From contig NZ_JALBGD010000007.1 of assembly GCF_023507705.1 (NCBI RefSeq), forward strand, positions 62,001 to 126,000: a stretch of 64,000 bases of DNA, given 5' to 3'. Shown one piece after another: positions 26,516-45,010 of this stretch. The DNA comes from Stappia sp. WLB 29. Its GTDB lineage: Bacteria; Pseudomonadota; Alphaproteobacteria; Rhizobiales; Stappiaceae. A model generated the notes under the pieces. That model had not been told where the DNA came from and searched no databases. It saw nothing but the letters and a program-made list of their open reading frames with translations. A program made the translations under genes and the position numbers. Numbering within the stretch: the stretch's first letter is position 1; the number at the start of each line of letters is the position of its first letter.

Positions 26516-26713
26516 TCAGCCCCCCTGCATGGGGGCGAGGATCTCGACCCGGTCGCCGTCGCGCACCTGCGTGCCGGCGCGCTCCTCGGCCGGAACGAAA
26601 TCGCCGTTGAGGGCGGTGGCGACGATGGCATCGCCATAGTCGAGCGCCTCGAGGATCGCGGCCAGCGACCCCGGCGCAAGCTCAAGCGGAGCGCCGTTGA
26701 CGGTTATGGCCAT
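26516..26713 (-). CDS. thiS: sulfur carrier protein ThiS
   Basis: Ubiquitin-like protein of 65 aa ending in the required Gly-Gly (APMQGG), which becomes the thiocarboxylate sulfur donor for ThiG. The N-terminus MAITVNGAPLEL is typical. Its first 32 bases overlap the end of thiO in another frame, an unusually long overlap for this operon. Confidence 0.93.
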   Translation of the reverse strand: MAITVNGAPLELAPGSLAAILEALDYGDAIVATALNGDFVPAEERAGTQVRDGDRVEILAPMQGG

Positions 26714-28832: not shown

Positions 28833-30173
28833 TCACCGCTCGCGCAAGGCGTGGGCGATCTGGTCGGTGACGGGGCGCACCAGGTAGGACAGCACCGTGC
28901 GGTCTTCGGTGGTAATGAAGGCCTCCGCCGGCATGCCGGGCACCAGGAGCTCGCCGTCGAGGCGCGACAGTTCCTCGTCCGGAATGACGAGACGGGCGAC
29001 GAAGTAGCGGGCGCCGGTAACGTTGTCCCTCGCAAGGTCGGCCGAGATAGTGTGCACGCGAGCGGCAAGCTCCGGCGTCGTGCGCTGGTCGAAGCCGGGG
29101 AAGCGCACGCGCGCCTCCTGCCCCGGCACGATCTGCGAGATGTCGCGCGGCTGCACCTGCGCCTCGATCACCAGCAGGTCGCCCTGCGGCACGATCAGCA
29201 TCAAGGTCTCGCCCTGACCGACCACGCCGCCGATGGTGTGCACGGCAAGCTGGTGGACCGTGCCGGCCTGCGGACTGCGCACCTCGACACGGCGCAGCTG
29301 GTCCTCGGCGGCGATCTTCTGCTCCTCCAGCCGAGCGATGCGGGCGCGAGTGTCCTGCAACTGCTCCAGCACCTCGGCGCGGGACTGCTCGTCGATCTGC
29401 AGCATCAGGATGCGCCGCTCGCTGATCGCCTCGTTGACCTCGGCGATCTTGGCGACGAGCCCGCCATGCTCGCCCTTGAGGCGGGTGCGGTCCCGCTGCA
29501 GGGCGGTGACGCGGGCGCGCGACACGAGCCGCTTTTCGAGGAGGGCGGTGAGATCCTTCAGCTCGTCCTCGATCAGGGCGATCTCCTCGCCCTTGGCGGA
29601 AAGCTGCGCATCGAGCCCCTCGATCTGCCGGCGATACTGGACGATCTGCTCGCCCAACTGGTCCTTACGGCCGGTGACGGACTTGCGCCGCGCATCCATC
29701 AGGCTTTTCTGGCTGTCCTCGACCAGCGCCAGCTGCTCGGTATCGGCAAGCTCGCGGGCGCGCTCGTTGAAGGCGATTTCCTCGCTCTCGTCGCGCTCGG
29801 CGACGAGGCGCGCTTCCTGGGCGTAGAGATCGACGAGCTGGCGCGTCACGACGGCCAGGTTGGCGCGGGTCACCGTATCGTCCAGGCGCACGAGAAGGTC
29901 GCCGGCGGCCACGCGGTCGCCGTTCTGCACGGCGATCTCGCGGACGATGCCGCCTTCCTGGTGCTGGATGCGGCGCACGTTGCTCTCCACCACCACGGTG
30001 GCGGGCGCGACGACCGCGCCGGAAATGCGCGCCATCGCCGCCCAGCCGCCGAAGCCGCCGAGCAGCAGAACCGCAACCAGCAGCGAGGCGAGCAGGTGAC
30101 GGCGGACGCTGCGGGTCAGCTGACGGTCGATGGAGGGCGCGGCGAGGCGCCCGTCGGCTTCGCGGCGGACCAT
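28833..30173 (-). CDS. type I secretion membrane fusion protein (HlyD/PrtE family)
   Basis: Periplasmic adaptor of 446 aa. One N-terminal membrane helix lies at about residues 28-50, then a biotinyl-lipoyl half-motif (IQHQEGGIVREIAVQNGDRVAAGDLLVRLDD), a long coiled coil (about 100-290), and the second lipoyl half with RSPQAGTVHQL. It links the inner-membrane ABC exporter to an outer-membrane channel, which is not in the window. One base separates it from the exporter gene. It is the last gene of the cluster. Confidence 0.92.
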   Translation of the reverse strand: MVRREADGRLAAPSIDRQLTRSVRRHLLASLLVAVLLLGGFGGWAAMARISGAVVAPATVVVESNVRRIQHQEGGIVREIAVQNGDRVAAGDLLVRLDDTVTRANLAVVTRQLVDLYAQEARLVAERDESEEIAFNERARELADTEQLALVEDSQKSLMDARRKSVTGRKDQLGEQIVQYRRQIEGLDAQLSAKGEEIALIEDELKDLTALLEKRLVSRARVTALQRDRTRLKGEHGGLVAKIAEVNEAISERRILMLQIDEQSRAEVLEQLQDTRARIARLEEQKIAAEDQLRRVEVRSPQAGTVHQLAVHTIGGVVGQGETLMLIVPQGDLLVIEAQVQPRDISQIVPGQEARVRFPGFDQRTTPELAARVHTISADLARDNVTGARYFVARLVIPDEELSRLDGELLVPGMPAEAFITTEDRTVLSYLVRPVTDQIAHALRER

Positions 30174-30174
30174 G

Positions 30175-31887
30175 TCACGCCACTCCCGACTGCGGCACCG
30201 GCGCGACCACGCGCTTCAGCACCTCGTCCTTCGGTCCGAAGGCCGCCATGCGTCCATCGCGCAGGCACAGGACCTTGTCGACGGCGGAGATGGCACTCGG
30301 CCGATGGGCGATGACCACGACGATGCAGCCCGCATTGCGCATTTCTCGGATCGCCCGCGTCAGCGCGGCCTCCCCGTCGGAATCGAGATTGGAATTGGGC
30401 TCGTCCAGCACCACCAGGAACGGCTTGCGGAACAGGGCGCGGGCAAGGGCGATGCGCTGCTGCTGCCCGCCCGACAGGACCATGCCTTCCGACCCGATCA
30501 GCGTGTTGTACCCGTCCGGCAGACCGGTTGCAAAATCGTGGATATCGGCCATGCGGGCCGCCTCGATCACCGCATCCGCCTCCGCATCCGGATCGAAGCG
30601 GGCGATGTTTTCCGCAACCGTCCCGTCGAACAGCTGCACGTCCTGCGGCAGATAGCCGATGATGCGGCCGCGGCGGGCGGGCGCCCATTGCGACAGCTCC
30701 GCCCCGTCGAGGCGGACCGAGCCATGCAGCGGCGGCACCAGGCCGACTAGGGCACGGGCCAGCGTCGACTTGCCCGAGCCGGACGGGCCGATGATGCCGA
30801 GCCCGTCGCCGGCGGAAAGCTCCAGCGCAACGCCCTGCACCACCGGGCGCGGCACGCCGGCCGGGCCGCAGGCCAGCTGCTCGACCGTCAGGGAGCGCTG
30901 CGGCAACGGCAACTCCAGGCGCTCGACGTCCGGCTCCGACAGCTGGGCGAACACCTCGCGCAGGCGCCGGCGACCGAGACGAGCCGCCGCAAAGGGGCGC
31001 CACTGGGCGACCGCCTGCTCCACCGGGGCGAGCGCGCGGGAGGTGAGAATGGATCCGGCGATGACGACGCCAGGAGTGACCTCGCCCAGGATGGCGAGCC
31101 AGGCGCCGAGGCCCAGCACCGCCGACTGCAGCAGGAAGCGGACGGTCTTGATCCCCGTGGCGAAGAAGCCGGACCAGTCCTGCGCCCGGCGCTGCACCTC
31201 GAGGAAGGCCTCGTTCTCGCGCTCCCAACGCTGCACCAGGGGGCCGTCCATCGCCATGGCACCCAGCGCCTCGGCATTGCGGCGGCCGGCCTCTTCCACC
31301 GACGCCCGGCGGCTGGCGGCGCGGGCGGCTTCCGTTGCCGGCTTGCGGGACGTCGCCTCGTTGAGGCCGATCAGGATGCAGATCAGCACTGCACCGCCGA
31401 TGGCCAGCCAGCCGAGCAACGGATGAAACAGGAAAAGCAGGGCGAAATAGACCGGCATCCACGGCAGGTCGAAGATCGCCGCCGGGCCGGGGCCGGACAT
31501 GAAGGTGCGGACCGCGTCAAGATCCTGCACCGGACGCAGTTTCGCCGCTCCCGCGCCCATGCGCAGCGGCAGCCGGGACGAGATGGCGAAGGCAAGACCG
31601 GACAGCTGGGCATCGATGCGCTGGCCGATGCGCGAAAGGATGCGCGAGCGCAGGCCTTCCAGGAGGCCGAAGACGCCATAGAGCAGCAGGGCGAAGCCGC
31701 TGATCACCAGCAGGGTCGGCACGGAGCCGCTGGCCAGGACCCGGTCATAGACCTGCAGCATGTAGACCGGCCCGGTGAGCATCAAGAGGTTGACCAAGAG
31801 GCTGACCAGCGCCACGCCGAAAAGCGCGGAGCGCACCGCACGGAAAACCCGGTCCACCACCGTGGCGCCCGCCGGCGCCTGCGTCAT
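30175..31887 (-). CDS. type I secretion system permease/ATPase (PrtD family)
   Basis: ABC exporter half-transporter of 570 aa. An N-terminal transmembrane domain (from about residue 20; LLMLTGPVYMLQVYDRVLASGSVPTLL is the PrtD hallmark) precedes the ATPase with GPSGSGKST, LSGGQQQRIALARAL and VVLDEPNSNLD. The start at 31887 is inside a longer open frame with no conserved residues. Usual substrates are RTX-type proteins, but none is visible nearby. It follows the NRPS gene by 137 bases. Confidence 0.92.
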   Translation of the reverse strand: MTQAPAGATVVDRVFRAVRSALFGVALVSLLVNLLMLTGPVYMLQVYDRVLASGSVPTLLVISGFALLLYGVFGLLEGLRSRILSRIGQRIDAQLSGLAFAISSRLPLRMGAGAAKLRPVQDLDAVRTFMSGPGPAAIFDLPWMPVYFALLFLFHPLLGWLAIGGAVLICILIGLNEATSRKPATEAARAASRRASVEEAGRRNAEALGAMAMDGPLVQRWERENEAFLEVQRRAQDWSGFFATGIKTVRFLLQSAVLGLGAWLAILGEVTPGVVIAGSILTSRALAPVEQAVAQWRPFAAARLGRRRLREVFAQLSEPDVERLELPLPQRSLTVEQLACGPAGVPRPVVQGVALELSAGDGLGIIGPSGSGKSTLARALVGLVPPLHGSVRLDGAELSQWAPARRGRIIGYLPQDVQLFDGTVAENIARFDPDAEADAVIEAARMADIHDFATGLPDGYNTLIGSEGMVLSGGQQQRIALARALFRKPFLVVLDEPNSNLDSDGEAALTRAIREMRNAGCIVVVIAHRPSAISAVDKVLCLRDGRMAAFGPKDEVLKRVVAPVPQSGVA

Positions 31888-32024
31888 CGACTTGTCCTTG
31901 CGCAAGATCCCGTCCCAGTCCGCATACCTGCCGCAACCGACATCGTCGGTCGCATGCCACGCTAGCTGTCGGAAAACTAGCACTTTCTCGCTGCGGACGG
32001 GCTTATTTTTTGGCCACGACCGCG

Positions 32025-35000
32025 CTAGGAACACTGCAGAGCACGGCGACCGGTCTCCGCTGCCTCAAAGGCCTCCCGCGCGCCCTCCGCCAGTTCCTGC
32101 AGGATCGTTTCACGCATATGCGCGGCGATGGCGCGGATATCGGCGTCGGAAAAGGCCTTCGCGCGGTAGAGGAACCGCAGCACGCAGCCGTCGCTATAGG
32201 TGCGGGCGAAGACCAGCGCCTCATGCGGGAGCGACGCCCGGACGACCTGCGGAATCGCGTCGAGGGAAAGGCCGGCCGGCATCGCCTCGCTGACGTCGTA
32301 GCCGTCGAGCGCGAAGCTGATGCCGGTGACCGGGTGGACATGCTCGTCGTCCGGCTCGCCGGCCAGTCGGGCGAGATCGCGGAAGCACACGTCCTGGTGA
32401 TCGCGGGCGGCCTCCAGCATGCGCGACAGGCTGGCGACGATGGCAGGCGTGCTCTTTCCAGCCCCGTCGATGCGCAAGGGCACGGCGCTGAACAGCAGGC
32501 CCAGCGTGTCGAGCAGTTCCGGGCGGTAGCGCCCGTGGGTGGTGACCCGGATGATCAGGTCGGATGCACCGGAATGGGCCGCCATTGCCCGGTAGAAATG
32601 CGCCATCAGAAAGGGAAAGACGCTGGCGTTGAGCGCGCGGGCATGGGCCAGCAGCGCGTCGTGATCAACGCCGAGCGGCACGGTGAGCATGCGCGCCGAC
32701 AGGTTCTCCCGGTCGGGCCCGGAGACGAAGCGCGGCATCGGCGGCGCGCCCGCGATATGCGCATGCCAGAAGGCGGTGGCGCGGGCACGGCTTTCGCCGG
32801 TTTCGGCGGCGATGGCCGAGCGGAACGGCCCGCGCACCGGTACCGGCGCGCCGGCCAGCGCGTCCTCGATGTCGCGGCGGATATATTCGCGCGACATGCC
32901 GTCGCTGATGAGGTGATGCATGGACAGGACGAGGCGGCCGGCACCCGACGGGCTGGTGAGCAGCAGGATCCGGAAGGGGCGCTCGCCGTCGAGGTCGAAG
33001 GTCCGCTCGCCGAAAAGGGTGGACCGCCGGTCGAACTCGGCATCGTCCGCCTCGACCTCCTCGAAGTCCTCAGGACTAAAGCCTTCGGCAACCATCGTCT
33101 GCAGCAGCGTGTCGCCATCCCGCCGGAAGCGCAGGTGGAAGCAGTCGTTGAGTTCGATCAGCCGCAGCAACACGCGCTTCAGCCGCTCGGCCTCGGCGGC
33201 GCGAAACGGCATCTGCAGGATCATGTTGATGGCCGCGCCGAAGATGTCCTTGCAGAAGATGTCGAAGATCGTCTGCTGGCGGCTGGTGAGCGGCCGGTAA
33301 GTCGCCACCGCCGCTTCCGGCAAAGCGGGGGCGCCGCCCGTGTCCGCAGTTTTCCCCGTCTGGCGAAGCCGCCCGCCATTGGCGAGGAACCAGGCCGCGA
33401 TGGCACGCGGCGTGCCGGCCTCGTAGAAGCGCGGCTGGGGAATGGCGATGCCGAAGGCCGTCTCCAGTTGCAGGGCGATCAGTCCGAACATCAGCGAATT
33501 GCCGCCAAGGCCGATGAAATCCGTATCGAGGCCGCAAGGACGGCGCAGCACCTGCGAGATCACCTGCTGGACATGCCGCTCGGCCGGGTTGCCGTGAAGG
33601 GGCTCGCCAGGATCCGCCTGCGCTTCGGCGAGCAAGGCTGCCGCATCCGCAGCAAGGGCCTTGCGATCCACCTTGCCGTTGAGGGTGACGGGGAAGCTGG
33701 CAAGACGCGTGTAGAGCGAGGGCATCACGGCCGGATGAAGAGCATCGGACAGCTGCTCGCGGAGCAACGCCTCCCGGTCCGGCGCGCCCTGCCAGAACAG
33801 GGCGAGCGTCTCGCCCGGCGCCTCGGGCGGCGCCAGCTTGACGGCGACCGCGCGCTCGACGCCCTCGCAAGCTTCGGCAAGACGCTCGACCTCGCCGGCC
33901 TCGATGCGGATGCCGTTGACCTTCATCTGGTTGTCGAGGCGGCCGAGCAGGAAGAGGTCGTCTCCGGAAACCTCGCCCCGGTCTCCCGTGCGATAGGCGT
34001 ACCAGCCCGGCCGGACCTGCGGGAACGGCTCGGCCGCCCCGTCGCGGCGCCGGTAGCCGTTGGTCAGGTAAGGCGAGGCGAGCACGATTTCGCCGGTCCC
34101 GGCGAGTTCGAAGGACACATCGTCGCCGATGGGACGGCCCACGGGATAGAGCGCGCCGCGCGTCGGGCAGTCTTCGTCGATCAGGCGGCAGAACTTCGCC
34201 ATCGTGCCCTCGGAGGGGCCGTAGAGATTGTAGACGCGCCCGGCATAGCGGCGGCGCAGCGCCGCGACCAGCGGCACCTTCAAAGGTTCCCCGGCAAAGA
34301 ACAGGGCACGGACGTCCAGGCGCGGCAGCTCGCCGGCCGCCAGCCAGGCAGAGACGATGGACGGAACGACATGGGCAATGTCGATCCGCTCTGCCGTCAG
34401 CCATTGCCAGCCCGAGGCGATGTTGAACCCGGCCTCGACATCGGGAACGACCAGCGTGCCGCCGGTCACCAACGGCAGCAACAGGTCGCGATACATCACG
34501 TCGAAGGACAGCGGCGTCAGCCAGGAGACACGCGGCGCCTCGCAGAATCTGCCGACGAGGCCCGACTGCCAGGCCATGAAATGGTCGATACCCTCCATCG
34601 TGCCTTCGATGGCCTTGGGCTCGCCGGTGGTGCCGGAAGTGAAGGCGATATAGGCCGCCTGACGCGGGAGGCGCGGCGCGATGCAGCCCGCGGGATCGGG
34701 CTGCGGCACCTTGCCGTCGAGATCTGCGACGATCCCGGCGATGTCGCGTTGATCGCTCAAGGTGTCGCACCAGTCGAGCAGCGCATGCTGTCGGGCGAGC
34801 GGCAGGCGCCCGTCGACCGGAACGGCGACATCGCCCGAGGCCAGCGCCGCAAGCATGCCGACGCCGGCCTCGATCGAGGGACGTCCGTTGATCCCGACAA
34901 GTCCGGGGGCGGAACGGGAGAGGCCTTGGCGGCCGGTCCTGCGGATCGCCTCATAGAGGCCGGCATAGGTCAGCCGGCGCGGCCCCTCTTCCATCGCGAC

Positions 35001-35057
35001 GCGGTCGCCACGATCGAAGGCAAGTTCCTCGATCCGCCGCAACACCGAATATGTCAT
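32025..35057 (-). CDS. non-ribosomal peptide synthetase module, order A-T-C
   Basis: Cytoplasmic enzyme of 1010 aa. The adenylation domain (about 1-490) has AFTSGTTGEPKA, NLYGPSEGTMAKF, YRTGDRGE and LNGKVDRKAL. The carrier domain has its phosphopantetheine serine at 521 (LGGNS). The condensation domain (about 590-1000) has MHHLISDG (His714, His715, Asp719). The Asp of SFDVMYRD matches the Asp that holds the alpha-amino group, so an amino acid is probably activated. No thioesterase domain is present. GGGAG precedes the ATG. Confidence 0.93.
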   Translation of the reverse strand: MTYSVLRRIEELAFDRGDRVAMEEGPRRLTYAGLYEAIRRTGRQGLSRSAPGLVGINGRPSIEAGVGMLAALASGDVAVPVDGRLPLARQHALLDWCDTLSDQRDIAGIVADLDGKVPQPDPAGCIAPRLPRQAAYIAFTSGTTGEPKAIEGTMEGIDHFMAWQSGLVGRFCEAPRVSWLTPLSFDVMYRDLLLPLVTGGTLVVPDVEAGFNIASGWQWLTAERIDIAHVVPSIVSAWLAAGELPRLDVRALFFAGEPLKVPLVAALRRRYAGRVYNLYGPSEGTMAKFCRLIDEDCPTRGALYPVGRPIGDDVSFELAGTGEIVLASPYLTNGYRRRDGAAEPFPQVRPGWYAYRTGDRGEVSGDDLFLLGRLDNQMKVNGIRIEAGEVERLAEACEGVERAVAVKLAPPEAPGETLALFWQGAPDREALLREQLSDALHPAVMPSLYTRLASFPVTLNGKVDRKALAADAAALLAEAQADPGEPLHGNPAERHVQQVISQVLRRPCGLDTDFIGLGGNSLMFGLIALQLETAFGIAIPQPRFYEAGTPRAIAAWFLANGGRLRQTGKTADTGGAPALPEAAVATYRPLTSRQQTIFDIFCKDIFGAAINMILQMPFRAAEAERLKRVLLRLIELNDCFHLRFRRDGDTLLQTMVAEGFSPEDFEEVEADDAEFDRRSTLFGERTFDLDGERPFRILLLTSPSGAGRLVLSMHHLISDGMSREYIRRDIEDALAGAPVPVRGPFRSAIAAETGESRARATAFWHAHIAGAPPMPRFVSGPDRENLSARMLTVPLGVDHDALLAHARALNASVFPFLMAHFYRAMAAHSGASDLIIRVTTHGRYRPELLDTLGLLFSAVPLRIDGAGKSTPAIVASLSRMLEAARDHQDVCFRDLARLAGEPDDEHVHPVTGISFALDGYDVSEAMPAGLSLDAIPQVVRASLPHEALVFARTYSDGCVLRFLYRAKAFSDADIRAIAAHMRETILQELAEGAREAFEAAETGRRALQCS

Positions 35058-35360
35058 GCCCGTCTCCCGATGGCCGCAACCAACCCTTCGCCAGAACGAG
35101 AGAAAGCTCGATGCAAAACGGCATCAGATCGGCCTCTTGGCGTCCTGAACGGATTTTTTCTTGAAACTACTTGAGATTACGGATGTTCCGCACTTTTGCA
35201 GGATCTGAAGAGGGGTATCACGACAACGTGGCGATGTAAAATATCCGTATCACCAACCGGTATCCACACTCCGTATTTCAGGATATGCAACCCTTGGGCG
35301 GGCGCAAGGGACCCTTGCCGGGCGCGCACCGCCCGGTTGCCCCTTCTTCGGTCAAAGAGG
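35058..35360 (-). promoter_or_regulatory. 303-base gap before the NRPS gene, possible internal promoter
   Basis: This is the only large gap inside the cluster. It is AT-richer than its neighbours between 35140 and 35285. It has CCGTAT/GGTATCC-like short repeats (around 35250-35280) and a 7-bp GC hairpin at 35318-35336 (CCGGGCG / CGCCCGG) near the end of the upstream gene. I could not fix a -35/-10 pair. No gene is seen. Confidence 0.4.
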
Positions 35361-36299
35361 TCAGCAGTCCGGCCGGTCGGTACAGCCGATCTCCTGCCGG
35401 GCCGCAACCCGCCGCGATCCGGCAACTTCGACGCGGCTGCGCACGCTCAGGACGTCGGCCATATGCTTGCCGTCGGTAGCCCGGGTCACCCGGCAGCGGT
35501 GCCGCCAGAGCAGATCACCCCGCTCGAAGTCGACGAGCTCGATGGAGATCGCCTCGCCGGGATCGATGTTGGCGTGATAGGCGACGCTGCGCCAGCGGGT
35601 GATCGCATTGCGCGCGAAGTCCGGATCGACGTTCCATTCGGCCCGGTCGACGAAAGCCGGGACGTTGGCGAAGTAGAGAAAGCCCGCCCCGTTGAAGTCC
35701 TGCGAGGGGCAGGGAAAAAACAGCTGCGGCCGGTGGTCGGCGGCAACGATCGTTCCCTCGTCCCAGGCCCACAAGGTGCCGTCGAGGCCCGACAGATCCG
35801 ACTTGCCGGCTTCGGAGACCGGCGGCAGGCCCTGGATCTCGACGCGGACCACCGAGCGGTTCGAGGTCTGGCCGTTGCGGTGCACGAAGACCGAGACCAT
35901 GCGCACGATGCCGAGCATCGCCCCGCCGATGCTCAGACGGTGCTCGCTCTGCACCTGGGTGCGCGACAGGCGGAACAGGCTGGAGCGGATCACCAGCGTG
36001 TCGTTCTCCTTGGCCATATCGAAGCGCGCGCCCTCGATCCGCACCGAACGGAACGCGGCATAGACCGTGTGTCCCGCCTCGTCGTAGAAGTCGGGAAAGT
36101 CGTATTCCGCCATGCGCGCCAGCTGGATCCAGTGGCGGTGGCCCAGTTCCTTCAGCAGCCAGGCCTCCGAAAGCCCGCTGAAGGCCAGATGCGGCATGCC
36201 GAGATGGACCCGGTGAGTGCTCGCCCAGCCTGTCGCCCGATCCCGGTGGGACGCCACCCCTGGCCCGGACCGGGGCCGGTTTCTCTCTTGCAGTGTCAC
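35361..36299 (-). CDS. LnmK-like biosynthetic protein (Pnap_2097 family)
   Basis: Protein of 312 aa (GTG start at 36299) resembling LnmK, the double-hotdog acyltransferase/decarboxylase that makes propionyl-ACP in leinamycin biosynthesis, and the related Pnap_2097 group. The recognisable block is VHLGMPHLAFSGLSEAWLLKELGHRHW (residues 31-57). Such proteins occur in NRPS/PKS loci. Here it may load or transfer an acyl group on a carrier protein. The start is uncertain within the first 30 residues, and the substrate is unknown. Confidence 0.72.
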   Translation of the reverse strand: MTLQERNRPRSGPGVASHRDRATGWASTHRVHLGMPHLAFSGLSEAWLLKELGHRHWIQLARMAEYDFPDFYDEAGHTVYAAFRSVRIEGARFDMAKENDTLVIRSSLFRLSRTQVQSEHRLSIGGAMLGIVRMVSVFVHRNGQTSNRSVVRVEIQGLPPVSEAGKSDLSGLDGTLWAWDEGTIVAADHRPQLFFPCPSQDFNGAGFLYFANVPAFVDRAEWNVDPDFARNAITRWRSVAYHANIDPGEAISIELVDFERGDLLWRHRCRVTRATDGKHMADVLSVRSRVEVAGSRRVAARQEIGCTDRPDC

Positions 36300-36349
36300 G
36301 GGACATGATCCTCCGCGATTTCGGGGTCGGCAGGCCGGCGGGACGCCGC

Positions 36350-37159
36350 CTATTCGAGCCGGTCGGTTCCCGTATCCCTGGCCCAGAGAGGGCCGCGGTC
36401 ACGGCGTACCTTGCGCACCATCGCGTCGAAGAGCTTGGCGGCGAACGCATCGCCCGCGACGAGCTCCTCGGCCGCTGCCGCGCTGCGCAGACGCACTTCG
36501 TCGGTGAGCGGGGTATTGGCGCCGGGCAGCATGCCCGCCTGGCACTGGATTTCGGCCGCGCGCTGCGCGTTGTAGAGCAGCCAGAAGGTGCGCGGCACGT
36601 CGCGCTCGCCGACCGCGATGCCGTGGTTGCGCAGCACAAGGACACTCTTGTCGCCAAGGCTCGCGACCATGCGCGGGCGCTCGTCGGCAAAGACCGTCAC
36701 CCCCTCGAAGGCGTGATAGCCGACCCGGCCGAAGAGCTGCGCCCCGTAGAAGTCGTCATAGGTGAAACCGCCCTCCTTCAGCGCGATGGCGGAGATCGGC
36801 GTCGTGTGGGTGTGGGCGATGCAATGGATGTCGTCGCGCGCCTCGTGGATCGCCCCGTGCAGGGCAAAGCCCGTCCGGTTGGCCGGGTAGTCCGACGGCT
36901 CGACCAGATTGCCCTCGACGTCGACCTTCACCAGGTTGTCCGGGGTGATCTCCTCGTAGTGCAGCCCGAAGGGATTGACGAGGTAGTGTCGGTGGGGACC
37001 GGGCACGCGCAGCGAGATGTGGTTGAAGATCATCTCGGTCCAGCCGAGATAGGCGACGAGATGGTAGAACTCGGCAAGCTGGACGCGCATGCGCCGCTCC
37101 TCGGCGGCCATCTCGTCCCGCGCCTCGCCGGACTTTGTGCTGGAAACCGTCTTCAGCAT
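36350..37159 (-). CDS. class II aldolase/adducin-family protein
   Basis: Protein of 269 aa. The zinc-type histidines are in CIAHTHTTPISA and LRNHGIAVGE; LGWTEMIFNHISLRVPG and NRTGFALHGAIHEARDDIH are family blocks. Class II aldolase-fold proteins act as aldolases, epimerases or decarboxylases. In this cluster it probably tailors a small precursor or the amino-acid unit. It is 50 bases upstream of the LnmK-like gene. Confidence 0.85.
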   Translation of the reverse strand: MLKTVSSTKSGEARDEMAAEERRMRVQLAEFYHLVAYLGWTEMIFNHISLRVPGPHRHYLVNPFGLHYEEITPDNLVKVDVEGNLVEPSDYPANRTGFALHGAIHEARDDIHCIAHTHTTPISAIALKEGGFTYDDFYGAQLFGRVGYHAFEGVTVFADERPRMVASLGDKSVLVLRNHGIAVGERDVPRTFWLLYNAQRAAEIQCQAGMLPGANTPLTDEVRLRSAAAAEELVAGDAFAAKLFDAMVRKVRRDRGPLWARDTGTDRLE

Positions 37160-37222
37160 GGCTGTCTCCCGTTCGGATGGGGTTGGGCCCAGCGGACACG
37201 CCGCCGGGCCTTGGCACGAGTG

Positions 37223-38248
37223 TCAGTGGGCGTGCTGGATCAGCGCGGTGAGCACGCTGCGGTCGCCGGAGAAGCGCTTGCGGCCATGGGCGACGAGGAT
37301 ATTGTCCAGGACGAGCACGTCGCCCTTCTGCCACTGCACCGGCTTCTCGTTCTCCAGCAGCACGTCGTAGATGTGCAGCACATCCTCGGCCGAGATCTCG
37401 GTGCCATCGCCGTAGCGCATGTGGTCGAGAAGCTGCGGCGCCTCTTCCAGCGCCCGCGCCAGCCGGTCGGCGGCCTCGGTGCGACCATCGAGCCGCGCCC
37501 ATTTCAGCGCCGAGACGGGCGAGAAGATATGCACCTGGTTGAACCAGACATCGTCGCCGGAGCGCGGGTGCTGCCGGGTGGTCGGACGCACCTCCTGCCA
37601 GAGCTGCATCGACCCGTCGTCCAGCCATTCGAAGCGCCAGCCGGACTTGGCGGCGACCTTCTCGGCCTCCTCGCGCCGGTCGGTCGCGAACACCTCGTGC
37701 CAGGTCTTGGGCACGCCCGGCCGGGAGGCGACCTTCTCCGGCAGCGGCAGGTTGCGGCAGAGCTGCACGCCGCCATGGGTCTCGAAGCGCTCGCGGACCT
37801 TCGGATCGATGGCGCGGGTGATGGCGCGCATGTCGCCGATGGTGGTCTGGCCGCCCTCTTCGGGCGGGCGCTCGCAGAAGAAGGAGATGCGGTCGGGCGA
37901 ATTGTCCGTGTAGGACATCTCCTGGTGCAGCGGGATCGAGTAGGAGCCGGGGATCTCGGTCGCGGTCATGATCCGGCCGTTGACGACCTTGCGCGGCGAG
38001 GTGCCGCCGACATAGTCCATCAGGTCGGGCGCGACCACGTCGAGCACCTTCTGATAGTCGCTGGAGGTGTGCACGCAGTCGAACCCGCGCAGCAGGACGC
38101 CGCCGTTTTCATCGAGCTGGGCGGAGATGCGGTCCTTGGCCTCGGCGAGGTAGGCGGCGAGCTCGTCGAGGCTGAAACGGGTGCCGTCGCGCGGCGACCA
38201 GACCACGATCGGAACGTCGGGACCGAGAGTGCTTTCAACGTGCTGCAT
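37223..38248 (-). CDS. TauD/TfdA-family Fe(II)/2-oxoglutarate-dependent dioxygenase (SyrP-like)
   Basis: Protein of 341 aa. The iron motif starts with His-x-Glu in PLHQEMSYTDNSPDRISFFC, and the distal His with the 2-oxoglutarate Arg is in LDNILVAHGRKRF. The His-x-Glu form and GGTSPRKVVNG are seen in SyrP/clavaminate-synthase-like hydroxylases of NRPS clusters. It would hydroxylate a carrier- or free amino acid or an acyl chain. Confidence 0.87.
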   Translation of the reverse strand: MQHVESTLGPDVPIVVWSPRDGTRFSLDELAAYLAEAKDRISAQLDENGGVLLRGFDCVHTSSDYQKVLDVVAPDLMDYVGGTSPRKVVNGRIMTATEIPGSYSIPLHQEMSYTDNSPDRISFFCERPPEEGGQTTIGDMRAITRAIDPKVRERFETHGGVQLCRNLPLPEKVASRPGVPKTWHEVFATDRREEAEKVAAKSGWRFEWLDDGSMQLWQEVRPTTRQHPRSGDDVWFNQVHIFSPVSALKWARLDGRTEAADRLARALEEAPQLLDHMRYGDGTEISAEDVLHIYDVLLENEKPVQWQKGDVLVLDNILVAHGRKRFSGDRSVLTALIQHAH

Positions 38249-38286
38249 GACGCGAACTCCTGGTTGGGGTGGATCGGAAGGTCGCC

Positions 38287-38712
38287 TTACGGCTTGACCT
38301 GGAAGATCGTGGCGAGCGCCGTCGCCACCAGCTTCTTGCGCGTGCCCGAAAGGGCGTAGACATCGGCACGGCAGACCGCATGGCGCCCGCCGTAGTTGAG
38401 CACCTGGCCGTGGCCGACGAGCGTCTGGCCGACGGCGGGTGCGAACATGTTGAGCTTATATTCGGAGGTCACGACATCGCCGGCGACGGAGGCGGCCGCC
38501 CAGGCACAGGCGCTGTCGGCCAGGAATCCGATGATCGCGCCATGGCCGAAGCCGTGATGCTGGGTCAGCTCGCGGCGCATCGGGATGCTGATCTCGACCT
38601 CGCCGTGGCGATAGGTGTCGAGGCTGGCCCCGACCCAGACCGCAAACGGCGTCTTGCCGATCACCGCTCCGATCTCGTCCCGCGAGAGAACCGGCTGCTT
38701 TTCCTCGGACAT
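38287..38712 (-). CDS. PaaI-family hotdog thioesterase
   Basis: Protein of 141 aa. The 4HBT/PaaI pattern is HHGFGHGAIIGFLADSACAWAAAS followed by TSEYKLNMFAPAVG. It hydrolyses acyl thioesters on CoA or a carrier protein, possibly releasing or proofreading intermediates. It is 75 bases after the acyl-AMP ligase gene and 38 before the dioxygenase gene. Confidence 0.85.
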   Translation of the reverse strand: MSEEKQPVLSRDEIGAVIGKTPFAVWVGASLDTYRHGEVEISIPMRRELTQHHGFGHGAIIGFLADSACAWAAASVAGDVVTSEYKLNMFAPAVGQTLVGHGQVLNYGGRHAVCRADVYALSGTRKKLVATALATIFQVKP

Positions 38713-38787
38713 GGTCCTTTATTCACCTCGTCACGATTGCAAGTTCCGCGAACCGGGCGGGCCGTGCCGGCCCGGTTCCGCGTTCGG

Positions 38788-40587
38788 TCAGTCGTCGCCG
38801 CTCGCCGCTCTGGCGGGCTCCGCCTCGGCAGCCTGGGACGGCCGGCGGGCAAGGATCGCCAGCGTCTCGTCGAGATAGCGCTTGCGCGTCTCGGCCCGGC
38901 GGATCTTGCCGCTCGACGTCTTGGGGATGGAGCCCGGCTCCAGCAGGACGATCTTGTGGAAGGTGACGTCGGCCTCGCGCAGGATCTCCTGGCGGATCGC
39001 CCGTGTTGCCGCGTCGATATCGATCGACTGGCGATTGCCCATCCGCACCTCCTGGGCGAGCACCAGCGTCTGGATGCCGCTGTCGGGATCCTCCACCGCG
39101 AAGGCGGCGCCGGAGTTGGTCTTCAGCCCCGGCCAGGCGCGCTCCGCCACATATTCGATGTCCTGCGGATAGACGTTGTGGCCGCGGACGATGATGAGAT
39201 CTTTGTATCGGCCCGTGACATAGAGCTCGCCCTCAAGAACGAAGCCGAGGTCGCCGGTGCGCAGGTAACGCTCGCCGTCTGCCTCGCCCTTGATGCGCGC
39301 GTGGAAGGTGCGCTGGGAGACCTCCTCATTGTCGAAATAGCCGAGCGGCACATGCGGTCCTGCCACCCAGATCTCGCCGATCTCGCCGTCGGGCATGGCG
39401 GCGAAAGTCTCCGGGTCGACGATGCGCAGCGTCTCGTCGCGCAGCGCGCGGCCGCAGCCTATCGCCTGTGTCTCGTCTTTCTCGTCGGCCGGCGCGACGG
39501 CCGCCCCTCGCGCAAGGCCGGCACGGCTGACCGGACGCAGGATCGGAACCTCGCTGCGGCTGCCGCCGGTGATCAGGAGCGTCGCCTCCGCCATGCCGAA
39601 GCAGGGGTAGAAGGTCTGCGGGCGAAAGCCGATGCCGGCGAAGGCCTCGGTGAAGCGCTGCAGGGTGCCGGCGCGCACCGGCTCGGCGCTGTTGAACGCC
39701 AGCTTCCACGACGACAGGTCGAGACCGGCATCGATGATCAGGTCGCGGCGCTCGATGCACAGGTCGTAGGCATAGTTCGGTCCGCCGCTGACCACCGCGC
39801 GATAGTCGCTGATCGCCTTCGGCCAAAGCCAGGGCCGGTGGGCGAACAGGTTGGGCGACATCAGGATGCAGAAGGTGCCGAGATAGAACGGCTCCAGCAC
39901 ATTCGCGATCAGCCCCATGTCGTGATAGAGCGGCGCCCAGCCGACATAGGTGGGATTGTCGTCGTTGCCGAAGGCCTCGGCCATCATCTCCAGGTTGGCG
40001 GCCAGATTGGCGTGGCTCACCATTACGCCGCGCGGCACCGACGTGGAGCCGGACGTATACTGGATGAAGGCGAGTTCGTGCGGCAGCGCCTCGTGCGGGT
40101 CGGCCGTCGGTGCGGCGCCGGCTTCGTCGAGATCGATGGCGATGAAAGTGGCGTCTCGGTAGCTCGGCAGCGGGCTCAGCTGAGCGTGGACGAGCGAGGC
40201 CTGGTCGAGATTGCTGAACACCACGGCGGCAGCGGCATTCTCGGCGATGGCATGCACCGTGTTGCGCAGGCGCGAGCCCTTCAACGGCACCATCGGCACC
40301 GGCACCACGCCGGCGAAATGGCAGGCGAAGAAGGCGACGACGAAGGCAAGGCCGGTCGGGAACATCAGGATCGCCCGGTCGCCGGGGCGCGTGTGCCGCC
40401 GCAGCCGCTGGCCGTAGATGCGCGCCAGCCGGTGCAGCTCGGCGTAAGTCAGCGCCTCCTGCTCGATATTGTCCGGCCCCAGATAGAGGAAGGCCCGGTC
40501 GTCGGGCCGTGCGGCCGCATAGGTGTCGAGGAGGCCCCACAGGGTGGGAACGCCGACGCTGCTCAGATCCCGGCTCTTGTCCAGCAT
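38788..40587 (-). CDS. fatty acyl-AMP ligase (FAAL)
   Basis: Enzyme of 599 aa that activates a fatty acid as acyl-AMP and passes it to a carrier protein. FAAL-type blocks are FIQYTSGSTSVPRGVMVSHANL, GWAPLYHDMGLIANVLEP, YPCFGMAEATLLITGG, TGDLGFVLEGELYVTGR and KTSSGKIRR. Its length and the YHDMGLI block separate it from acyl-CoA synthetases. The ATG follows GGAGGAG and lies within the last 25 bases of the thioesterase gene. The likely partner is the stand-alone ACP of this cluster. Confidence 0.92.
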   Translation of the reverse strand: MLDKSRDLSSVGVPTLWGLLDTYAAARPDDRAFLYLGPDNIEQEALTYAELHRLARIYGQRLRRHTRPGDRAILMFPTGLAFVVAFFACHFAGVVPVPMVPLKGSRLRNTVHAIAENAAAAVVFSNLDQASLVHAQLSPLPSYRDATFIAIDLDEAGAAPTADPHEALPHELAFIQYTSGSTSVPRGVMVSHANLAANLEMMAEAFGNDDNPTYVGWAPLYHDMGLIANVLEPFYLGTFCILMSPNLFAHRPWLWPKAISDYRAVVSGGPNYAYDLCIERRDLIIDAGLDLSSWKLAFNSAEPVRAGTLQRFTEAFAGIGFRPQTFYPCFGMAEATLLITGGSRSEVPILRPVSRAGLARGAAVAPADEKDETQAIGCGRALRDETLRIVDPETFAAMPDGEIGEIWVAGPHVPLGYFDNEEVSQRTFHARIKGEADGERYLRTGDLGFVLEGELYVTGRYKDLIIVRGHNVYPQDIEYVAERAWPGLKTNSGAAFAVEDPDSGIQTLVLAQEVRMGNRQSIDIDAATRAIRQEILREADVTFHKIVLLEPGSIPKTSSGKIRRAETRKRYLDETLAILARRPSQAAEAEPARAASGDD

Positions 40588-41393
40588 GGTCTCTCCTCCG
40601 GAAGGCTGATGGGACGGGCGGACGTGCCCGCAGGTTCGAAGTCGGCCCAGCGGGCCAGGGTCCTGACGAGGATCGCCTCCAGGCGGCGCGTGCCCTCGGC
40701 ATCGAAGAAATGCGCGCCCGGCAGCTGGCCGCAGGTGAAATTGCCGGTGGTGTGGGCCGACCATTCGATGAGCTCGCGCAGCGACATGATCGGGTCGTCG
40801 AAGCCCTTCACCGCCAGCATGGGACACTCGAGCGGCGGCTGGCCGGCGTAACGATAAATGTCGGACAGCTGCAGGTCGGCGCGGATCACGGGCAGCACCT
40901 GGCGCAGCCAGTCCTCCTTGCCGCGCATGAGCGCCGGCACGCCGCCGAGACGATGGAGCGCGGCAACAAGCTCGTCGTCGGGCAGGCTGAACAGCTCGCC
41001 ATGGCTGAGTTCGCAGTGGGGCGCGCGCCGGCTGGCGACGACGAGGCCGGCGGGCATGTCCTCGCCGATCAGCCGCAGGAAGCGGGTCAGCTCGAAGGCG
41101 ATCAATGCGCCGAGGCTGTGGCCGTAGAAGACGAAAGGCCGCCGGGATCCGGCGCGGGACGCTAGGAAGTTGCGGACGAGGCCGGGAACCAGCGCGCCGG
41201 CCCATTTCGGCAGGACATTGCAGGTCTCCGCCGTGCGGCCGGGAAGCTGCACCCGGTGCAGCGCGACCTCCGGGGGAAACTTCGCCTGCCAGGCCGCAAA
41301 GGAGTGGCGGCTGCCACCGGCATGGTGGAAGACGTAGAGGTCGACCGCCGCCCGCGCGCGGTCGCTGGCAAAGATCTCCGCCTGCGCGCTCAC
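40563..41393 (-). CDS. type II thioesterase (GrsT-like alpha/beta hydrolase)
   Basis: Protein of 276 aa. It opens with DLYVFHHAGGSRHSFAAWQ, the nucleophile Ser93 lies in YGHSLGA, and the catalytic His is in LPGAHFF. Type II thioesterases clear misprimed carrier proteins or release products in NRPS systems. The GTG at 41393 overlaps the P450 stop (GTGA). Its last 25 bases overlap the FAAL start. Confidence 0.9.
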   Translation of the reverse strand: MSAQAEIFASDRARAAVDLYVFHHAGGSRHSFAAWQAKFPPEVALHRVQLPGRTAETCNVLPKWAGALVPGLVRNFLASRAGSRRPFVFYGHSLGALIAFELTRFLRLIGEDMPAGLVVASRRAPHCELSHGELFSLPDDELVAALHRLGGVPALMRGKEDWLRQVLPVIRADLQLSDIYRYAGQPPLECPMLAVKGFDDPIMSLRELIEWSAHTTGNFTCGQLPGAHFFDAEGTRRLEAILVRTLARWADFEPAGTSARPISLPEERPCWTRAGI

Positions 41394-42682
41394 GCCGTCC
41401 CCCGTTGACTGGAGAAGCGGATGTCGAGCCGCTCGGGACCGCGCAGGATCAGGCTGTTGGCCTGCCAGCGGCGCTCTGGATCGACACGCTCGAAGTCGCC
41501 GTAGCCGTTCAGCAGCACCTTGAGAAAGGCATCGCCCTGGACGCGGGCAAGCAGCGCGCCGAGACAGGAATGCATGCCGAAGCCGAAGCCGATATGGGCG
41601 GTGCCCTTGCGGTCGAAGCGCAGCTCGTCGGGAGCCTCGAAGACCTCGCCGTCGCGATTGGCCGAGCCGAGGCAGAGCAGGATCTGCTCGCCGGCGGCAA
41701 TGTCGATGCCACCGACGGTGCAGTCCTCGACGGCAAGGCGCTTGGTGAACTGCAGCGGCGTCTCGTAGCGCGTCACTTCCTCGATCGCGGCGCGGATCGA
41801 GGCTCCGTCGTCGCCCAGCGCCTCGAACTTCTCGCGGTGATCGAGGATGGCATCGACGAGATTGCCGATGAGGCACTGGGTCGTCTCGGTGCCGGCGACG
41901 AAGGACATGACGCAGGCGAAGGCGATCTCCTCCTCCGTCAGGCCGGCGCCGTCGACCTGCGCCTCGCAGAGGCGGGCGATGATCGTGTCCTTGCCCGACT
42001 TGCGGATGCGGGCCGCATGCTCGCCGAAATAGCCGGTCAGCTCGCGCATGCTGCTTGCCGCCTTCTGGAAGGCGGAGCGGTTCATCATGCCGGGGTCGAG
42101 CAGGTAGCGGACGGCATGGACCTTCTCGGCGATACCGGGGCGGGCTTCGTCATCGACCGCCATCCAGTCGCACAGGATGTCGATGGGCAGCGGCACGGCG
42201 ATGTCCGCCATGACGTCGCAGCCGCCGCGGGCGGCATGGGTGGCGAGCAGGCGCTCGATCCGGTCGGTCAGCACCGGCAGGAGAGCGTTGATCGCCTCAT
42301 TGGAATAGGCCTGGTTCACCAGCCGGCGCAGACGCATGTGCTCCGGATTGTCGGTGAAGACGATGGAGGTCTGCAGGAAGCGCAGCATCTGGCCGTAGTC
42401 CTCGAACCGCAGGCGGGCGGCCTGCTTGACCACCGTGTCGGGGATCAGGCGCACGCTGAACTTGCGGCTGCGCATGACCGCGAGCACGTCTTCGTAGCGC
42501 GACAGGATGAGCGTACCCTTGGTGCGCAGGATCGGCGCCTCGCGGCGCAGGCGCGCATAGACCGGATAGGGATCGGCGCGGAACGCGGGATCAAGTGGGT
42601 TGAAGACGATGTCCTGGCCGCCCGGCACGCGGGAGGCAGCGCTGCCTGGCTGGGTTTGTGCTGCTGGGGCGGTGACGGTCAT
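41390..42682 (-). CDS. cytochrome P450
   Basis: Soluble bacterial P450 of 430 aa. The heme motif is FGFGMHSCLG with the axial cysteine at 373. The I-helix has SFVAGTETTQ, with Glu in place of the usual Asp before Thr, and the K-helix EVTR gives E-x-x-R. It probably hydroxylates, epoxidises or desaturates the acyl chain or the product. ATG at 42682 is preferred over an upstream in-frame start. No ferredoxin gene is nearby. 130 bases separate it from the methyltransferase gene. Confidence 0.93.
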   Translation of the reverse strand: MTVTAPAAQTQPGSAASRVPGGQDIVFNPLDPAFRADPYPVYARLRREAPILRTKGTLILSRYEDVLAVMRSRKFSVRLIPDTVVKQAARLRFEDYGQMLRFLQTSIVFTDNPEHMRLRRLVNQAYSNEAINALLPVLTDRIERLLATHAARGGCDVMADIAVPLPIDILCDWMAVDDEARPGIAEKVHAVRYLLDPGMMNRSAFQKAASSMRELTGYFGEHAARIRKSGKDTIIARLCEAQVDGAGLTEEEIAFACVMSFVAGTETTQCLIGNLVDAILDHREKFEALGDDGASIRAAIEEVTRYETPLQFTKRLAVEDCTVGGIDIAAGEQILLCLGSANRDGEVFEAPDELRFDRKGTAHIGFGFGMHSCLGALLARVQGDAFLKVLLNGYGDFERVDPERRWQANSLILRGPERLDIRFSSQRGTA

Positions 42683-42812
42683 GGCACGGTTCCCTGTTGC
42701 TGGACGCGGGCAAGACGGAGACAAGACGGGGGCGTCCGGCGGCACGGCTCGCGCAGCCGGGGGTGTTGCCGATGCGTGCGGCGGGCCGGCGAGGGACGCC
42801 GGCCCGGCTCCC

Positions 42813-43715
42813 TCACATCCTCGACAGTTCGGAGACGGGGCGATCGGTCGGGCGCAGCGAGATGCGCAGCAGCCCGATCTTGCCCGTGTAGAAGCCGATG
42901 GAGGTCTGCTTGAGATAGCGCTCGTACCGCTCGGTGACGGTTTCTCCGACCAGCTTCACCGCCTCGTCGCGCCGCCGGCGCAGGTTGCGCGCCCACGCAT
43001 CGTAGGTGCGGGCGTAGTGCAGGCGGTGGTTGACCAGATAGGTCACCTCCATCACCCCGTCCGCCGCCGCGGCGATCTCGTCCAGCCGCGGAAGGTCGGC
43101 GGCCGGGAAGATCTCCTCGTTGATGAACTGGCTGGCTTCCTCGTTGCGCATGGTGCCGTAGACGAAGGTCTGCAGCGACATGCGCCCGCCCGGCGTCAGC
43201 CACGAGGCACAGGTGGCGAAGAAGTCGCGATAGGTCTCGATCTTCACCTGACGGCTGTCCTCGGGCTTGGCGAAATGCTCGAAAGCGCCGACGGAGATGA
43301 TGCTGTCATAAGGCCGGTCCGGCTTGTGCTGGGTCCAGCTTTCCAGGCGCACCTCGATCTGCGGGATGCCGAAGCTGCGCACGTTGTCCGCCTGGTCCTC
43401 GCTGAGCGTCAGGCCGACGATCCGCTTCAGGCCGGAATAGCTGCTGGCCTTGCGTACCAGGGCGCCCCAGCCGCAGCCGACGTCGAGCAGGGATTCAGCC
43501 TTCTCCGCCCGGGCCTCGCGCAGGTGATGGTCGATCTTGCGCTGCTGGGCGGCGGCCAGCGTGTCGTCCTCGCCCTCCCACAGGGCGCTGGAGTAGGTGA
43601 GCGACTCGTCGAGCCACAGACGGTAGAAGTCGCGGCTGACGTCGTAGTGGTACTGGACCGCGGCCATCGAGCCGCCGTAGTCGGGCTGTTCCGTCTTCAT
43701 GGTATCGGCCCTCAT
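42813..43715 (-). CDS. cyclopropane-fatty-acid-synthase-like SAM methyltransferase
   Basis: Protein of 300 aa. QYHYDVSRDFYRLWLDESLTYSSALW (21-46) is the CFA/mycolic-acid-synthase N-terminal signature, and VGCGWGAL (79-86) binds SAM; VGAFEHF follows. Such enzymes add a methylene or methyl to a double bond. It is shorter than CfaS (about 380 aa), lacking the N-terminal lipid-binding part. Its start overlaps the ACP stop, so an ACP-bound unsaturated chain made by the desaturase is a likely substrate. Confidence 0.87.
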   Translation of the reverse strand: MRADTMKTEQPDYGGSMAAVQYHYDVSRDFYRLWLDESLTYSSALWEGEDDTLAAAQQRKIDHHLREARAEKAESLLDVGCGWGALVRKASSYSGLKRIVGLTLSEDQADNVRSFGIPQIEVRLESWTQHKPDRPYDSIISVGAFEHFAKPEDSRQVKIETYRDFFATCASWLTPGGRMSLQTFVYGTMRNEEASQFINEEIFPAADLPRLDEIAAAADGVMEVTYLVNHRLHYARTYDAWARNLRRRRDEAVKLVGETVTERYERYLKQTSIGFYTGKIGLLRISLRPTDRPVSELSRM

Positions 43716-43999
43716 CCTGCCGTGACGTGCTGGCGCTCGGCCTCACGGGCGACGCCGGCGGCGATGTTGTCGAGCGTTTCCGCCTCGAACAGGATCGCCA
43801 GCGGGATCTCCACGCCGAGCCAGGTCTCCAGATCCATCGCCAGCGCCGTGGTCAGGGCGGAGTCGAGACCGAGGGAATCGAGTCCATCGCTGCCCTTGAT
43901 GGACGCCTGGTCCATGCCCAGCACATTGGAGATGTAGGTCTTGAGCCAGGCAAACACGGCGGCCTCGTCGACCTTTTCCGCAATCTGAACGTGATCCAT
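43712..43999 (-). CDS. acyl carrier protein
   Basis: Four-helix carrier protein of 95 aa. The phosphopantetheine attachment serine is Ser47 in DSLGLDSA. It lies between the desaturase and methyltransferase genes and overlaps the latter by 4 bases. It probably holds the fatty acyl chain delivered by the FAAL while it is desaturated, methylated or oxidised, before condensation by the NRPS. Confidence 0.92.
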   Translation of the reverse strand: MDHVQIAEKVDEAAVFAWLKTYISNVLGMDQASIKGSDGLDSLGLDSALTTALAMDLETWLGVEIPLAILFEAETLDNIAAGVAREAERQHVTAG

Positions 44000-44032
44000 G
44001 GGAACTCCTCCTCTTCCTGCAATTGCGTCGGG

Positions 44033-45010
44033 TCAGGCGCTGCGAATTTCCCGGCGCTCGATCTGCTCTTTCGTCGGGACCTTGATGTCCCAGGCCTGGC
44101 CGAAAAGAGCGAGCAAGCGGATGACCCAGTAACCGGGATCGATGCGGTACCAGGCGAGCCCGAAGGACGCGGAACCGGGGAAGGCGTGGTGGTTGTGGTG
44201 CCAGGACTCGCCGAAGATGAAGGGGGCGAGCCAGCTGATGTTGGTGCTCTGGTCGTCGGTGACGAAGCGGCGGCGGCCGATCAGGTGGCAAAGCGAGTTG
44301 AGTGCGAAGATGCCCTGCTCGACCACGAACATGCGCACCATGCCGCCCCACAGGAAGCCCGTCAGCGCACCCATCCAGGACTGGCTCACCAGCCCGCCGA
44401 TGGCGGTCGGGATCAGCAGGCCCAGCACGATCCAGGTGTAGTAGTGGCGGTTCACCCAGATCATCACCCGGTCCTTGAGCAGGTCCGGCGCGTAGTGGAC
44501 GACGTTGGGATAGGGATGCGCCACCATCCAGGTGAAATGCGCGTGGACGAAGCCCTTGAGCTTGCCCTTGAGCCCGCTGCCATGCAGGTTCGGCGAGTGG
44601 AGGTCGCCTTCCTGGTCGCCGAGCTCGTGGTGTCGCCGGTGCATCGCCGTCCAGGAGATCACCCCGCCCTGCCCCGCCATCGACCCGAAGATGCCGAGAG
44701 CCGCGCGAACCGGCGCGGAGGCCTTGAAGCTGCGATGAGTGAAGAGACGGTGGTAGCCGATCGAGATCCCCAGACCGCTCAACGCCCAGAAGACGAGGAA
44801 GAGCGTCAGGTCGAGAGACGTGATCGGGTGGAAGAACAGCAACACGATCGCGCAGGCGGTGCCGAGGATCGGCAACACGTCGAACAGGAAAAAATGCATT
44901 CTCTGCATCTTGTGCAGGTGCGGACTGTCGATAACCTTCTGGCGCGGCTGCCCTGGCAGTTGCACCTCCTGGAACATCTGATGAGCGATCTGGTCGCCTC
45001 TGTTCAGCAT
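44033..45010 (-). CDS. membrane fatty-acyl desaturase (delta-9/stearoyl-CoA type)
   Basis: Integral membrane di-iron enzyme of 325 aa. The three histidine boxes are HRLFTH (87-92), HRRHH (124-128) and HHNHH (271-275), with four or so hydrophobic helices. It inserts a double bond (possibly a triple bond) into an acyl chain. The ATG at 45010 follows GGAGGAAG. It is the first gene of the cluster, 33 bases before the ACP gene, so an ACP-bound substrate is plausible. A housekeeping lipid desaturase is the alternative. Confidence 0.92.
   Translation of the reverse strand: MLNRGDQIAHQMFQEVQLPGQPRQKVIDSPHLHKMQRMHFFLFDVLPILGTACAIVLLFFHPITSLDLTLFLVFWALSGLGISIGYHRLFTHRSFKASAPVRAALGIFGSMAGQGGVISWTAMHRRHHELGDQEGDLHSPNLHGSGLKGKLKGFVHAHFTWMVAHPYPNVVHYAPDLLKDRVMIWVNRHYYTWIVLGLLIPTAIGGLVSQSWMGALTGFLWGGMVRMFVVEQGIFALNSLCHLIGRRRFVTDDQSTNISWLAPFIFGESWHHNHHAFPGSASFGLAWYRIDPGYWVIRLLALFGQAWDIKVPTKEQIERREIRSA

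Follow-up and report, generated by a model that had tools for sequence, protein, structure and literature searches.

Which product a run of closely packed biosynthetic genes would make, and which of these genes form one pathway, was the question raised by a 64,000-nt stretch (hereafter the window, whose positions are used throughout) of the 4.75 Mb genome of Stappia sp. WLB 29. A preliminary description had proposed a nonribosomal peptide synthetase (NRPS) cluster of thirteen closely spaced or overlapping minus-strand genes with a dedicated exporter. The thirteen open reading frames were borne out by their coordinates, all on the minus strand and within 28833..45010, and the proposed family names agreed with the family searches. 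On balance, the eleven genes from 45010 to 32025 appear to form one two-module biosynthetic cluster whose product would be a fatty-acyl amino acid or ester. Domain matches and a gene order kept in 7/7 carrier loci supported a single conserved cluster that encodes a fatty acyl-AMP ligase (FAAL), a dedicated acyl carrier protein (ACP), acyl-tailoring enzymes and one NRPS module. The features of the locus were the following:

45466..46122, + strand: LysE-type transporter, divergent from the cluster (PF01810, 79.7 bits, cut-off 25.6)
44033..45010, - strand: membrane fatty acid desaturase, 325 aa (Pfam FA_desaturase PF00487, 63.9 bits, cut-off 29.7)
43712..43999, - strand: dedicated ACP, 95 aa (PF00550)
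42813..43715, - strand: S-adenosylmethionine (SAM) methyltransferase of cyclopropane/mycolic type, 300 aa (structure matches PcaA and MmaA2; NCBIfam matches below cut-off)
41390..42682, - strand: cytochrome P450, 430 aa (PF00067)
40563..41393, - strand: type II thioesterase, 276 aa (PF00975; GTG start picked by eye)
38788..40587, - strand: FAAL, 599 aa (best solved matches include FadD32, FadD23 and FadD28)
38287..38712, - strand: PaaI-like hotdog thioesterase, 141 aa (PF03061; TIGR00369 above cut-off)
37223..38248, - strand: TauD-type iron- and 2-oxoglutarate-dependent (Fe/2OG) oxygenase of At3g21360 type, 341 aa (PF02668; best structures 1y0z and 9yut)
36350..37159, - strand: class II aldolase/adducin-family protein, 269 aa (PF00596; NF005451 above cut-off)
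35361..36299, - strand: Pnap_2097/LnmK-family protein, 312 aa (TIGR04099 and TIGR04098 above cut-off)
32025..35057, - strand: NRPS with adenylation (A), thiolation (T) and condensation (C) domains in the order A-T-C, 1010 aa (domain searches; divergent C domain)
30175..31887, - strand: PrtD-type type I secretion system (T1SS) ABC transporter (TIGR01842, 677 bits, cut-off 510)
28833..30173, - strand: HlyD-family T1SS adaptor (TIGR01843, 378 bits, cut-off 209)

Intergenic gaps ranged from -25 to +137 bases, with 303 bases before the NRPS gene as the exception. The ACP/methyltransferase, P450/thioesterase II and thioesterase II/FAAL pairs overlapped and the remaining gaps were 1 to 137 bases. The desaturase scored 85.8 bits with the NCBIfam DesA model, below its cut-off of 400. 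Read by eye, the T domain had GGNSL, the C domain HHxxxDG and the ACP its serine.

The seven carriers were the window, five further genomes (G458, G459, G463, G465 and G468) and plasmid pCSC3H3 of Thalassospira marina; neighbourhoods L001, L002 and L003 were taken as G458, G468 and G465, and each was counted once. All seven had the same gene order, given here with the amino acid identity to T. marina: desaturase (75%), ACP (58%), methyltransferase (74%), P450 (62%), thioesterase II (56%), FAAL (66%), PaaI (69%), TauD (70%), aldolase (73%), Pnap_2097 protein (52%) and NRPS (50%). Eleven genes holding one order in 7/7 carrier loci put the cluster beyond chance, and the similar identity range of the front and back halves suggests that they probably moved together. 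The preliminary description had advised a comparison of gene order in related genomes and would have doubted the cluster if its acyl and NRPS halves were never found together elsewhere; the order was kept throughout, and both halves were present in the distant genus Thalassospira, so the two do travel as a pair.

Within the samples searched, the cluster had a narrow distribution and had crossed once from one order to another. A search with the NRPS at 1e-100 found it in 6 of the 87 family genomes, all within the genus (6/14 genus genomes, own genome counted), while at 1e-60 only three of 385 class genomes besides the own genome gave matches, at 32-35%. The same search of plasmids at 1e-60 matched one of 72,556 records, T. 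marina pCSC3H3, the plasmid through which Thalassospira was sampled. TauD was found at 1e-90 in 4/397 order genomes, every one in the genus, and the closest named relative of the window Pnap_2097 protein was from Stappia indica (93%). Being small, complete and conserved in two marine genera that are far apart, the cluster is well suited to a search for a new metabolite. In T. marina, a 4'-phosphopantetheinyl transferase gene was located approximately 4 kb upstream of the cluster (L004:332-1033); it had no relative at 1e-40 among 372 class genomes, own genome included.

Domains, gene order, conservation and the separate occurrence of the acyl half were observed directly, whereas all substrates, the order of steps, the bond, release and export belong to a pathway that we infer in two parts. 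In module 1 (desaturase, ACP, methyltransferase, P450, thioesterase II and FAAL), a free fatty acid would be activated and loaded on the dedicated ACP, and the bound chain would be desaturated, methylated at the double bond with SAM and oxidised by the P450. In module 2 (TauD, aldolase, Pnap_2097 protein and NRPS), one unusual amino acid would be activated, and the single C domain would link it to the acyl chain; TauD and the aldolase would oxidise or trim either this amino acid or the conjugate. As a release domain is missing from the NRPS, release of the product probably falls to a stand-alone thioesterase, and the probable role of the LysE protein is export of the product or of an amino-acid-like part of it. 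A methylated acyl chain is expected in the most likely product, a fatty-acyl amino acid or ester.

The methyltransferase bears on how the chain would be altered. It matched PcaA (1l1e) with 150 bits, with the family fold and SAM motifs present, and its 300 aa aligned to residues 110-373 of the 399-residue cyclopropane fatty acid (CFA) synthase 5z9o, leaving it without the N-terminal lipid-binding domain. Cyclopropane synthases have three bicarbonate ligands, Glu, His and Tyr (PMC9821293, PMC11387697); in CmaA1 these are H167, E140 and Y232, described as strictly conserved and essential for ring formation (PMC9821293). Counted along the PcaA alignment row, the window protein kept E140 and Y232, had Gln at 167 and Ser at C35, and so lacked one of the three ligands. 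The same Gln for His was present in 13/13 ACP-linked sequences. At C35, which we take to be a pocket residue, Ser was found in nine of the 13 (7 carriers and 2 Sphingobium) and Cys in four. The ACP-linked group was rare, with a profile search at 1e-80 recovering only the own genome among 398 phylum genomes. Compared with cyclopropane mycolic acid and CFA synthases, the protein is of the same family and keeps two of the three bicarbonate ligands, whereas it differs in the Gln, the adjoining ACP gene and the missing lipid-binding domain. The chain had been proposed to be methylated or cyclopropanated: methylation is still likely, while replacement of the ligand makes cyclopropanation doubtful and unsafe to infer. 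The product may instead carry a methyl branch or a methylene group. The question raised is how a cyclopropane-synthase fold acts with a replaced bicarbonate ligand and an ACP-bound substrate.

Module 1 also existed alone. Plasmid searches matched 43 records with the desaturase (30 listed) and 155 with the methyltransferase (20 listed), and seven of these were opened besides T. marina. Six loci among the matches listed encoded the methyltransferase together with ACP and FAAL. Pseudonocardia alni had desaturase-ACP-methyltransferase-P450-thioesterase II-FAAL, in the order of Stappia, with a type I polyketide synthase (PKS) gene starting approximately 8 kb further; Rhodococcus opacus had desaturase-ACP-methyltransferase-P450, a gap, then FAAL-PaaI; Polaromonas JS666 had FAAL, a transposase and desaturase-ACP-methyltransferase-desaturase-PKS; and Tistrella mobilis had desaturase-ACP-methyltransferase-FAAL followed by acyl-CoA dehydrogenase and enoyl-CoA hydratase genes. 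Two Sphingobium plasmids (L031:10920-14800, Sphingobium indicum pSRL2, and L034:10902-14663) carried an N-acyl-homoserine lactone (AHL) synthase gene-ACP-methyltransferase-FAAL, plus a divergent P450. The S. indicum gene annotated as AHL synthase scored 79.6 and 78.7 bits with NCBIfam models, under the cut-offs of 292 and 250, and its place in L034 was taken by a hypothetical protein of equal size. AHL synthases transfer acyl groups from acyl-ACP onto an amine, so such a gene beside the module fits acyl-ACP as a donor. The Sphingobium loci themselves possibly produce a quorum signal whose acyl chain is loaded by the FAAL and edited. The seventh record, L035 of Streptomyces goshikiensis, had desaturases, FAAL, ACP and rubredoxin without a methyltransferase match and was left out of the six. 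TauD, aldolase, Pnap_2097 protein and NRPS had no match at 1e-4 in the stretches read of the six loci, with a weak NRPS match overlapping the FAAL of L034 as the sole exception.

The desaturase-to-FAAL block looks like a portable acyl-ACP module. After Thalassospira, the closest desaturases and methyltransferases among the matches listed were actinobacterial (56-58%), which suggests transfer between phyla. We tentatively propose a mobile block spread across Pseudomonadota and Actinomycetota with at least three kinds of back end, namely a one-module NRPS (Stappia, Thalassospira), PKS genes (Polaromonas, perhaps Pseudonocardia) and an AHL-synthase-like gene (Sphingobium). Its methyltransferase would be a distinct ACP-acting branch that alkylates the alkene without the usual cyclopropane outcome, and in Stappia the block would supply an NRPS with a divergent C domain, yielding an undescribed class of acyl amino acids exported by a LysE-type protein. 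A portable fatty-acid-editing block would then be reused before NRPS, PKS and signal-synthase genes.

The A domain of the NRPS has both residues that activation of alpha-amino acids calls for, Asp and Lys. Its code, read by eye at the PheA positions, was D-V-R-H-F-A-L-M-A-K and was identical in 7/7 carriers; an acidic substrate side chain may lie opposite the Arg at 239. In the HHxxxDG motif of the C domain, the second His and the Asp-Gly were kept in 7/7 carriers and the first His was Tyr in T. marina. A fatty-acyl starter C domain was considered, with PvdL as the best profile match (97 bits), and was set aside as the score spans two stretches of unassignable PvdL domains. An epimerization (E) domain was also considered, since the domain follows A-T; no recognised E-domain model was matched and the C label was kept. 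Two C domains searched at E up to 10 gave no match to the E-domain model, which we take to be TIGR01720 and whose presence in the release was unverified.

Several points weigh against the two-module pathway proposed above. The A-domain code fits no standard code that we know of, the C domain had at most 29% identity in the plasmid collection outside T. marina, and its profile searches pointed to no one subtype. The roles given to the Pnap_2097 protein, aldolase and PaaI are guesses. In addition, with the C domain placed after its own A-T, the donor could just as well be the aminoacyl group.

This last point opens a reverse direction, possible but rather doubtful, in which the NRPS would donate the aminoacyl group from its own T domain to a hydroxyl that the P450 or TauD had introduced into the ACP-bound fatty acid; the product would be a hydroxy fatty acid esterified by the aminoacyl group. 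It would account for a C domain placed downstream of its own T domain. AmbB, an NRPS of the AMB cluster, presumably has the domain order A-T-C as well, and its C domain was among the solved matches of the window C domain (43.8 bits). AmbB has a single T domain, and the AMB cluster encodes it along with Fe/2OG oxygenases and a LysE-type transporter (PMC4357302). However, the second AMB NRPS, AmbE, has no counterpart here: an AmbE-type NRPS with methyltransferase and thioesterase domains was not found, with one NRPS gene each in the window cluster and in the T. marina annotation. The Sphingobium arrangement likewise favours acyl-ACP as the donor, and the transfer of the acyl chain to the amino acid is retained as the preferred direction.

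Two transporters adjoin the cluster, of which the preliminary description had not listed LysE. At 1e-40, LysE relatives were confined among the 14 genus genomes to exactly the 6 that have the NRPS, and the 8 others had none; simple counting puts this co-occurrence at 1 in 3003, an overstated figure as the genomes are related. T. marina had a 57.5% LysE relative 1.6 kb upstream of the cluster, with a LysR gene in between, and in the AMB cluster a LysE-type protein has been proposed as the product exporter (PMC4357302). LysE is the best candidate for the cluster's own exporter, and the core is the eleven genes, probably with LysE added.

The preliminary description had instead taken the PrtD/HlyD pair as the dedicated exporter, and this claim was not supported. 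The PrtD-type T1SS assignment itself was sound, with both the ABC and HlyD models above cut-off, and as an exporter it was favoured by the pair following the NRPS on the same strand in four of the seven carriers (the window, where it is 137 bases away, G458, G459 and G468) and by its position 8.2 kb off in G463, where a 94% relative lies beyond six opposite-strand genes, so that it lay within 9 kb in 5/7 carriers. However, in G465 the pair was not beside the cluster and a 64% ABC relative was on another contig, neither ABC nor HlyD was beside the T. marina cluster within approximately 10 kb, and ABC relatives at 65, 51, 46 and 44% were found in four of the eight genus genomes without the NRPS. 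No window frame had three or more GGxGxD motifs as an RTX-repeat substrate. The tie to the pathway is weak because the pair is not beside the cluster in all carriers and ABC relatives occur in genomes lacking the NRPS; the T1SS is probably a neighbour and not part of the pathway, and its role as the dedicated exporter is improbable.

Three of the six intervening G463 genes (L026:383-8402) were trypsin-like, one of them weakly, and two were mutually related (34%); the four carriers with the T1SS adjoining the NRPS had no space for these six genes. In G462 (L039:5067-11675), a relative of the window T1SS pair followed a small protein and a large protein, which we take from their sequences to be HasA-like haemophore and receptor-like, a context of haem-uptake type. 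Downstream of the window T1SS was a thiamine-gene block (23450-28549), presumably thiD, thiO, thiG, thiE and a tenA-like gene as named from sequence, of which thiD, thiO and thiG held the same position in L001, L002 and L028.

The remaining module 2 enzymes bear on the amino acid. TauD residues H108, E110 and H321 were invariant in 5/5 sequences. The aldolase matched the structures 3ocr (176 bits), adducin (135 bits) and TqaM (75.6 bits), with NovR, named a decarboxylase in the structure match listing, also distant. The Pnap_2097 protein scored 278 bits with TIGR04099 (cut-off 125) and 230 bits with TIGR04098 LnmK (cut-off 100); the earlier label LnmK-like was right in that the LnmK model was passed, and Pnap_2097 is the more exact family. 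Its Y80 was invariant in 8/8 sequences and aligned weakly with a LnmK Tyr in an alignment that was not significant. These two features are shared with LnmK, named methylmalonyl-CoA:ACP acyltransferase/decarboxylase in the PDB, whereas the window protein lies in the Pnap_2097 branch. The three other relatives whose neighbourhoods were examined all lay in nitrilase/radical-SAM clusters. In Paraburkholderia largidicola (L006:8016-10915), a gene of this family abuts one annotated as methylmalonyl-CoA mutase, a possible clue to what the family acts on.

TauD and the aldolase might alternatively form a TqaL/TqaM-like pair that supplies the A domain with a special amino acid, for example a dialkyl one. 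In fungi, TqaL converts valine to an aziridine, TqaF opens the aziridine and TqaM, an oxidative decarboxylase, yields 2-aminoisobutyric acid (Aib) (PMC11880133). The two genes were adjacent in 7/7 carriers and TqaM was among the solved aldolase relatives, but the aldolase was nearer to 3ocr and adducin, no TauD structure match was named TqaL and the conserved set had no TqaF-like hydrolase, which makes such a pair quite improbable. An isonitrile-lipopeptide type pathway, in which FAAL, ACP, a hotdog thioesterase, a TauD oxygenase and an NRPS give an isonitrile fatty acyl amide, is highly improbable: all five protein kinds are present and are shared with the isonitrile clusters, but TauD is of the At3g21360 type, a different subfamily, with none of ten sequences in a solved-structure profile search (E up to 10) named ScoE (whose presence in the PDB was assumed), and the desaturase, methyltransferase, P450, aldolase and Pnap_2097 protein are extra.

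The cluster had been described as not recognisable as any named one, and full-text literature searches on the enzyme combination and on Stappia and Thalassospira clusters named no such cluster. A Stappia survey (2026) counted 181 clusters in 17 strains, among which the sesbanimide and ectoine families alone were linked to MIBiG entries (PMC12997852; overlap of its strains with the carriers not verified). Compared with the AMB cluster ambABCDE, the window cluster shares a LysE-type transporter, an Fe/2OG oxygenase and an NRPS with one T domain (PMC4357302), whereas it lacks the second NRPS and has a whole fatty-acyl module in addition. A jamABC-type cassette is recognised by FAAL, fatty acid desaturase and ACP encoded together (PMC8406139), and all three are together in the window. 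As in the jamABC alkyne cassette and bacterial polyyne clusters, these genes are accompanied by a thioesterase, and one polyyne subclade also has a P450 (PMC8406139). In contrast, the window cluster has one desaturase and not three, as neither two further desaturases nor a rubredoxin were among the eleven genes in the window or the T. marina annotation, and it has an extra SAM methyltransferase and NRPS module. No match to the whole was found in these searches, which did not include MIBiG itself, and by its parts the cluster is like a jamABC cassette combined with a one-module NRPS.

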